DNA from: Microcaldota archaeon
Lineage (GTDB): Archaea > Micrarchaeota > Micrarchaeia > Anstonellales > Bilamarchaeaceae
Reading direction: 5' to 3'
DNA length: 33,071 nucleotides
Assembly (NCBI GenBank): GCA_018813505.1
Contig: JAHJBM010000023.1
Coordinates: forward strand, 1-33,071
Shown here: piece after piece, positions 17,352-30,630 of the stretch
Layout: every line of letters begins with the position of its first letter
How positions within the stretch are numbered: the first letter of the stretch is position 1
Position numbers and translations under genes: made by a program
Notes under the pieces: generated by a model
Told to the model about the DNA's origin: nothing
Databases searched by the model: none
What the model saw: only the letters and a program-made list of their open reading frames with translations

Positions 17352-17362
17352 ACTTTATATAC
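17352..17362 (+). promoter_or_regulatory. TATA-like box for the rps10 leader
   Basis: actttatatacc about 30 nt upstream of the structured leader. Confidence 0.55.
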
Positions 17363-17390: not shown

Positions 17391-17506
17391 TTGGAACGAC
17401 CAATAGAACGGCTTTCCGTTCTATGGTCCATTGATCGTTGCAACGATCAATTGGACAAATCGTTCCAGATTGTCGCACAATAAATTTTGGATTTATAGTA
17501 CGACAA
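17391..17506 (+). promoter_or_regulatory. structured 5' leader of rps10: three-way junction plus a further hairpin
   Basis: Outer stem TGGAACGA(17392-17399)/TCGTTCCA(17460-17467); H1 17400-17426 CC-a-ATAGAACGG-CTTT-CCGTTCTAT-GG; H2 17427-17455; linker CAAA; then TTGTCGCACAATAAAT/ATTTATAGTACGACAA (17470-17506, 14/16 paired). Confidence 0.8.
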
Positions 17507-17534: not shown

Positions 17535-17840
17535 ATGACAATGGTAAGAATCAGACTAAGCGGAGAGGATCCAAATGCACTTGACAACGTAGTGTCACAA
17601 ATAAAAAATCTCGCAGACGCTCTTAATATGACGTTCATGGGCCCAGTGAGACTCCCGAGAGAAAAGAGGGAGATAGCGTGCAGAAGAACCCCATGCGGTG
17701 ATGGTACTGATACTTACGAGCACTGGGAAAAAAGAATTCATAAAAGACTTTGTAATGTCGAAGGCGATGAAAAATACATCAAACAGATCCTGAAGGTAAA
17801 GGTACCTGCAAATGTATTTGTAAAACTATCCATCAGCTGA
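17535..17840 (+). CDS. rps10: 30S ribosomal protein S10
   Basis: MTMVRIRLSGEDPNALDNVVSQIKNLADALN...MGPVRLP...RRTPCGDGTDTYEHWEKRIHKRL; GAGGT upstream. Confidence 0.95.
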   Translation: MTMVRIRLSGEDPNALDNVVSQIKNLADALNMTFMGPVRLPREKREIACRRTPCGDGTDTYEHWEKRIHKRLCNVEGDEKYIKQILKVKVPANVFVKLSIS

Positions 17841-29514: not shown

Positions 29515-29550
29515 TATGATTGAAATAGATGGTTCTCACGGCGAGGGTGG
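29515..29550 (+). repeat. first copy of a 36-nt direct repeat (duplicated rtcA start)
   Basis: TATGATTGAAATAGATGGTTCTCACGGCGAGGGTGG, identical to 29658-29693. Confidence 0.97.
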
Positions 29551-29662
29551 TCAGATTGAACGGCCGATAAATCGACGTATCGATTTATGGCCCACAAAAC
29601 GATTCGTCGTTTTGTTGGCGAACCGTTCAAAACCCACCCTCGAACTAGAGGTTTTATTATGA
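29516..29662 (+). CDS. 48-aa upstream ORF starting with the RtcA N-terminus
   Basis: [51 protein letters not shown] at 29660 overlaps the rtcA ATG at 29659. Confidence 0.5.
   Translation: MIEIDGSHGEGGQIERPINRRIDLWPTKRFVVLLANRSKPTLELEVLL
29542..29642 (+). promoter_or_regulatory. rtcA structured leader: three-way junction closed by an extra 9-bp stem
   Basis: CGAGGGTGG(29542-29550)/CCACCCTCG(29634-29642); TTGAACGG(29556-29563)/CCGTTCAA(29623-29630); H1 29564-29590 CC-g-ATAAATCGA-CGTA-TCGATTTAT-GG; H2 29591-29618 CCc-ACAAAACGA-TTCG-TCGTTTTGT-tGG; linker CGAA. Confidence 0.85.
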
Positions 29663-29693
29663 TTGAAATAGATGGTTCTCACGGCGAGGGTGG
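29658..29693 (+). repeat. second copy of the 36-nt direct repeat (true rtcA start)
   Basis: Identical to 29515-29550. Confidence 0.97.
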
Positions 29694-30630
29694 AGGACAG
29701 ATAATAAGAACATCACTCACTCTTTCTGCGATAACCCAAAAACCAGTAACAATCTCAAATATTCGAGCAAAAAGACCAAATCCAGGACTTCAAATGCAAC
29801 ATCTCACATGTGCAAAAGCAGTAAGAAGCATATGCCGGGGAACACTTGAAGATGCTGAACTAAAAAGCACAAAACTAATCTTTCACCCAGGCGAGATAGT
29901 GGGCGGGAAATACGAATTCAACATAGGAACAGCAGGATCAGTAACACTCGTAGCACAAACAATTATTCCAATACTTCTGCAATCTGAAAAAAAGAGCAAC
30001 GTGAGGATAATAGGCGGTACGCATGTAATGAAATCCCCAGGTTATGATTATTTTGAAAAGGTTTTTGTACCTGCAATACACAAGTTCGGGGTAAAAATCG
30101 AAACTAGAATGCTTAAGACAGGATACTACCCTAAAGGCGGAGGGATGATTGAATTTGAGATTGAACCTTCAGAGTTGTATGGGTGCACTGATTGGCCGCA
30201 GGAAGATAAGATAAAGGCGATAATAAGAATAGCTGGTCTTCCGATGGACATTACAGTAAGGGAGAAAAAAATATTCGTACAAGAAGATATATGCGATGTT
30301 TTTATCAGACAGGATGAAACACTCTCGGTTGGTAATGCCGTAACTGCATGGAACGGCTACCGTGGATCTTATGTACTTGGAGAAAAAGGCAAACGCGCAG
30401 AAGTAGTTGCCCAAGAATCGCTGGATGAACTGAAAAAAGAAACAAAAGACGTTGATAAACACCTCGCAGACCAGCTTTTGATTTATGCCGCATTGGCAAA
30501 AGGAGAGAGCAGATTTGAAACATATGAAATAACAGAACATTTCAGGACAAACACTGCGATTATCGGAAAATTTGTCGAGAGAAAGATAAACTACGAAGAA
30601 GGAAGAGTTATAATTAATGATCGAAGCTAA
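29659..30630 (+). CDS. rtcA: RNA 3'-terminal phosphate cyclase
   Basis: [48 protein letters not shown]...GYYPKGGG...[23 protein letters not shown] upstream of the ATG at 29659. Track ORF start at 29587 is judged too early. Confidence 0.94.

Follow-up and report, generated by a model that had tools for sequence, protein, structure and literature searches.

The window, i.e. the whole stretch of 33,071 nucleotides that was analysed, belongs to a genome of 1.54 Mb in 95 contigs and carries on its plus strand the genes of ribosomal protein S10 (rps10, 17535..17840; PF00338 Ribosomal_S10, E 3.6e-21) and RNA 3'-terminal phosphate cyclase (rtcA, 29659..30630; PF01137 RTC, E 1.4e-79). The relatives of this organism, placed through RtcA, are Candidatus Micrarchaeota MAGs, which are DPANN archaea. 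Each of the two genes is preceded on the same strand by a palindromic element (17391..17467 and 29556..29630) that was delimited by folding and matched by a covariance model with 99.2 and 89.2 bits, respectively. Sequence and folding bore out the three-way junction drawn for both copies in an earlier note on this DNA, in which an outer 8-bp stem encloses two directly adjoining hairpins and a 4-nt linker, as well as the location of both copies 3' of a TATA-like box and 5' of a GAGGT site.

In the rps10 copy, the outer stem (5' arm TGGAACGA, 17392..17399; 3' arm TCGTTCCA, 17460..17467) carries in its tip the first hairpin (H1; 17400-17426, 27 nt, bulged A17402) and the second hairpin (H2; 17427-17455, 29 nt, bulged T17452), followed by the linker CAAA (17456-17459). 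The core of 55 nt (17400..17454, CC-A-H1-GG-T-CC-H2-T-GG), flanked by A17399 and A17455, corresponds to the repeated unit described below. The rtcA copy is built alike, with an outer stem pairing 29556-29563 with 29623-29630, an H1 at 29564-29590, an H2 starting at 29591, a linker that ends in CGAA, and a core that is likewise 55 nt long (29564..29618, CC-G-H1-GG-C-CC-H2-T-GG). As described previously, H1 measures 27 nt in both copies and has a single purine bulge at the like place (A17402 and G29566), and its 9-bp stems (ATAGAACGG in rps10, ATAAATCGA in rtcA) differ at three pairs that are all compensated; the outer stems, however, differ at two pairs and not at the single pair claimed. The minimum free energy z-scores are -8.1 for the rps10 copy folded as RNA and -6.0 for the rtcA copy folded as DNA, and no shuffle of either folded equally well.

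The rps10 copy lies downstream of a TATA-box-like sequence (TTTATATA, 17354..17361, plus strand) assigned to the rps10 promoter by sequence and by-eye alignment with 14 leaders of the same genus, and hence within the presumed 5' leader. These 14 leaders are short, with the TATA box 50–60 nt ahead of the ATG, and compared with them approximately 115 nt are inserted (placed by eye) in the leader of the window's genome. The element is absent from all 14.

The rtcA copy is flanked by two exact copies of the first 36 bp of the gene, a direct repeat missing from the earlier note, of which the first (29515..29550, plus strand) opens a short upstream ORF and the second (29658..29693, plus strand) contains the real start (ATG 29659). 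This duplicated start (29515-29693; also in L083, L084, and L085) has the layout [ATG..GEGG]-hairpin-complement of the GEGG codons (CCCACCCTC)-SD-[ATG..GEGGGQ] and, in a test of 4646 ORF starts, occurred at rtcA alone. The relative G008 has three good copies of the rtcA start, each encoding MIEIDG(S/A)YGEGG; between the real start and the two upstream versions there is a total of 13 differing sites, of which 12 are third codon positions. The complement segment of G008 matches the downstream copy. In both the window and G008 the upstream ORF stops on the TGA of the ATGA at the next start. The duplicated start is possibly a translated leader whose alternative pairing can mask the start. Furthermore, a conserved sequence of approximately 85 nt precedes rtcA in most relatives and reaches other families of the order (L121, L122, L126, L128, L091, L094, and others); it consists of a TATA box followed by CTTACGCTC...GTGCATGGGAGGATAACTGGTCGCCTTGCCAGC...GCTGGCCTA, matched no Rfam family even at a permissive E of 1, and is a candidate non-coding RNA or leader.

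Distribution, grammar, and covariation of the repeated unit

Searches with a covariance model that spans the entire element (R2, built on four copies), a step suggested in the earlier note, retrieved matches at E≤0.1 in 21 of 40 relatives, chiefly of the same family; at the stricter E≤1e-5, 21 of the 197 phylum members searched had matches, with a patchy spread across families. A copy 96% identical to the rps10 element, overlooked before, adjoins an LSm gene on contig C76 of the same genome, which also contains several more distant copies. A model of the single hairpin detected dozens of hairpins in this genome, most of them arranged as adjacent inverted pairs. The copies occur in unrelated non-coding contexts, namely leaders, tRNA introns, 3' flanks of genes, and hairpin arrays. 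The author of the earlier note knew of no described family with this layout; in the Rfam searches, no family other than tRNA gave a match.

It is the inner double hairpin, about 55–60 nt in length and of the form A-[CC-R-hairpin-GG-T-CC-hairpin-Y-GG]-A, that is repeated. This grammar is shared by 74 distinct units, with the left A present in 69 and the right A in 67 of them and a length of 55–56 nt in 47 and up to 59 nt in others. The geometry is typically one of 9-bp stems and 4-nt loops (88 of 138 single hairpins); the first hairpin has a bulged purine close to its base, which is mirrored by a bulged pyrimidine of the second hairpin. Across the 138 single hairpins the bulged base was G (n = 62), A (n = 61), or T (n = 15), but never C.

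The stem sequences vary at nearly all inner positions and yet stay perfectly paired. In 20 aligned units (440 cells), 99.8% of the cells were paired, and 102 two-sided changes were counted as against no one-sided (wobble) change (shuffled controls, 0/500). Mismatches in the 138 hairpins comprised three G-T and seven A-C; an apparent excess of G-T or A-C was an artefact of one reverse-strand hairpin scan that allowed wobble and disappeared with symmetric scoring. A helix under selection at the RNA level normally displays G-U intermediates. The absence of one-sided changes from the 440 cells therefore suggests that the pairing of the stems is a property of the DNA rather than of an RNA.

Filled and empty sites, nesting, and hairpin tips as targets

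Empty sites, defined by joined flanks matching at least 26 of 32 positions, were found elsewhere for 16 of the 74 units and for none of 220 shifted or random controls; only one of them is an exact filled/empty pair within the same genome, and for most others the empty site is a similar one at a different locus or in a different species. The exact pair stems from two near-identical loci of G155, of which L218 carries two double hairpins and L220 is without them. For one of the two double hairpins, the joined flanks agree with the empty site at 32/32 positions (GGTCG^AAATATTGCC vs GGTCG[ACCGACAAATCG...CTTGTCGG]AAATATTGCC), and the insert reads ACCG..57 nt..CGG. At the aligned empty sites no target duplication beyond 0–1 nt was seen; the insertion is precise, contrary to the target duplications that the earlier note expected of a MITE. 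Case by case, precise excision rather than insertion is a possible cause of filled/empty pairs. G155 also contains a second class of double hairpin (L218, L219, L220, L221, and L222; GGCGCAA-hairpin-TGCGCA-hairpin-TCGCGCC, 68 nt), which is 100% identical at several places of that one genome and probably represents a recently active mobile unit.

Many insertions have another hairpin as host and lie in its tip, where the 5' arm meets the loop (stem-CGA^CGNN-TCG-stem), and several empty sites are hairpins similar in kind to those of the unit itself, as seen in CATGGAACGA^CGTATCGTTCCATG (L144, filled in L045), TCAAGGTCGA^CGAATCGACCTTGA (L149, filled in L049), and ATTGTTCGA^CGCATCGAACAAT (L179, filled in L046). 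These hairpin-shaped empty sites imply that the unit enters at the loop's 5' edge and that the old loop has become the linker of the three-way junction. The linkers (CGCA, CGAA, CAAA, and others) agree with the loops of H1 (CGAA, CGCA, CGAT). The same applies to the window: without its unit, the rtcA leader retains a simple hairpin, as do the corresponding positions in G005, G008, and G015 (in G015, for example, TTTGAACGA-CGTT-TCGTTCAAA), and among the examined rtcA leaders of the genus the three-way junction was present in the window's genome only. The unit thus seems to have entered an existing hairpin, of which the outer stem is what is left. By analogy with the empty sites of the relatives, the outer stem of the rps10 copy is likely the remnant of an older hairpin and the linker CAAA its former loop.

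One insertion into an older hairpin's tip gives rise to a three-way junction, and repeated insertion would lead to tree-like arrays. A complete unit lies inside the H2 tip of another unit in L048, and a double hairpin of another class occupies the centre of a unit in L163, L164, and L167. An identical multi-hairpin array of at least 120 nt is found at the ends of contigs C17, C68, C83, and C86 (L022, L023, L025, and L026), and a variant of it inside C71 of the window's genome; such arrays probably break the assembly.

In five genomes, copies in tRNA introns have the same flanks (TTTTTGATGA^..AACTTTTT) and unrelated stems, which fits recurrent insertion into one hairpin loop as well as replacement in place; the shared flanks might reflect a retained function. 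Some sequences look by eye like tRNA genes, with D-loop, anticodon, and T-arm, that are interrupted by large hairpin-bearing introns (L002, 1300-1440; L005/L030, ~1250-1440; L040 on C36; L054 in G005). At the scanned loci of this kind ARAGORN called no tRNA, and Infernal did so in some only.

The dispersed copies, the empty and filled sites, and the nesting of unit within unit support one of the two interpretations offered in the earlier note, that of a small mobile palindromic element, at the expense of the cis-regulatory RNA family that its author preferred. Micrarchaeota probably (roughly 0.78) harbour a small, non-autonomous type of mobile DNA, of which the palindromic element described here is a copy. 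Those in front of rps10 and rtcA would then be two insertions into transcribed leaders, and any effect of theirs on expression would be incidental or secondarily acquired.

Modes of spread and comparison with known systems

A gene for the mobilising enzyme was not found, and the occurrence of Y1, Y2/IS91, and reverse-transcriptase genes does not follow that of the elements. A REPIN with a resident Y1 transposase was rejected, as PF01797 is absent from G000, G008, G017, G018, G020, and G022 and shows no correlation; Y1 genes are lacking in most element-rich genomes and in the window's genome. The IS91/Helitron-type Y2 domain (PF04986) was detected in two genomes only and among the carriers of elements only in G000. 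The Y2 idea had been prompted by contig C12 of G000 (L038/L238/L247), where a unit directly follows the 3' terminus of what by eye is a fragment of an IS1595-like transposase; the only Y2 (IS91-type) transposase of this genome lies downstream of the unit. Group-II-like reverse transcriptases do not correlate with the elements either and were not found in the element-rich G005, G008, G020, G022, and others. A bulge-helix-bulge intron was dismissed upon inspection of the unit ends, which have no such motif, and a DDE-transposon MITE because of the missing target site duplication of several bp. Beyond ordinary orthologues, no gene family recurs beside the copies, and approximately 1 Mb of element loci contained no autonomous longer version with a gene or cargo between half-elements.

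Given the fixed ends, the lack of target duplication, and the preference for hairpin tips, a trans-acting or host enzyme for single-stranded DNA fits best. The unit may move in single-stranded form, with its two hairpins folding on lagging strands, for instance, and an enzyme supplied in trans could recognise the bulge together with the CC/GG ends, which it would join into the single-stranded tips of other hairpins. A more specific version, which we put forward only tentatively, is self-targeting transposition, in which an archaeal enzyme would recognise a single-stranded double hairpin by its bulged purine and CC/GG ends and insert it at the tip of a like hairpin, so that trees grow; several classes of units (A, CC-R/GGWCC; B, TGTCG...CGARCATGYTCG...GACA; C, GGCGC...TGCGC...GCGCC) would share this mechanism.

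Spread without a dedicated enzyme, by replication errors such as fold-back and template switching at microhomologies, with copying from arm to arm keeping the stems perfect, would explain perfect arms without wobble intermediates, arrays with chimeric hairpin halves (L029), and the fruitless search for an enzyme. It is nevertheless unlikely in view of the near-constant ends A-CC...GG-A, the length of mostly 55–60 nt, and the conserved bulge and 9-bp/4-nt geometry; moreover, correction of the arms by itself should remove the bulge, and entry into hairpin tips occurs at specific points. Distinctly unlikely is a spread through RNA, in which units would be cut out of tRNA introns or leaders to be reinserted by reverse splicing or reverse transcription. 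Many copies do reside in transcribed regions such as tRNA introns, and the lack of target duplication is the argument once used for Allomyces (PMC2800124), but the unit ends are devoid of a bulge-helix-bulge splice motif, wobble pairs are missing, and the element-rich genomes named above lack a detectable reverse transcriptase. A leader RNA that controls rps10, rtcA, and other genes in cis through a conserved three-way junction would agree with the strong structure and covariation, the position of both window copies between TATA-like box and GAGGT site, and the flanks of the tRNA-intron copies that recur in five genomes, but is very improbable given its absence from 14/14 orthologous rps10 leaders and its presence in only one examined rtcA leader of the genus, the unrelated contexts and nested arrays, the stems without G-U intermediates, and the lack of an Rfam match. 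Upstream of a ribosomal gene, a three-way junction can look convincing and covary and yet be a DNA parasite, for which missing wobble intermediates and absence from orthologous leaders are quick tests.

In archaea with small genomes, the mobile element would account for tree-like arrays in non-coding DNA and for some of the large tRNA introns, and the findings make the search for its enzyme concrete. Mitochondria and plastids are already known to contain mobile double-hairpin elements, and bacteria to contain REPINs; among the open-access papers searched, none described a mobile double-hairpin element of DPANN archaea or one that has its own hairpin tips as a defined target. MITEs derived from IS200/IS605 have subterminal hairpins with an unpaired base and cause no target duplication, whereas the archaeal unit has CC/GG inverted ends and the window's genome no Y1 transposase. 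REPINs (REP-BIMEs) resemble the unit in form, as two inverted, extragenic hairpins are the replicative unit and folding as single-stranded DNA is predicted, and REPs have a GTAG-type tag, conserved stems, and an associated RAYT (Y1) transposase (PMC3116915; PMC2817692). The archaeal unit, in contrast, starts with A-CC-R instead of such a tag, its stems vary freely, and Y1 is mostly absent.

The short palindromic repeats in the organelles of Volvox carteri are about 50 nt long, with 3–5-nt loops of often fixed sequence, and are inserted in intergenic and intron DNA and into one another, forming larger structures that were deemed selfish (PMC2670323). They thereby resemble the archaeal unit in size, small-loop hairpins, non-coding sites, and nesting, but belong to green-algal organelles, have loops of TAAA/TTTA instead of CGNN, and are not reported to have A-CC/GG-A ends or a bulged purine (PMC2670323). 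The double-hairpin elements of Allomyces mtDNA, which lack flanking duplications and for which an RNA intermediate was once suggested, and the repetitive hairpin-forming elements of sponge mtDNA (PMC2800124) are similar in that two adjacent hairpins are mobile, larger clusters are copied as well, and the distribution is scattered. These elements are mitochondrial, and the likeness noted here concerns their form (PMC2800124); the archaeal unit differs from them in its near-invariant ends and its preference for hairpin tips as target.
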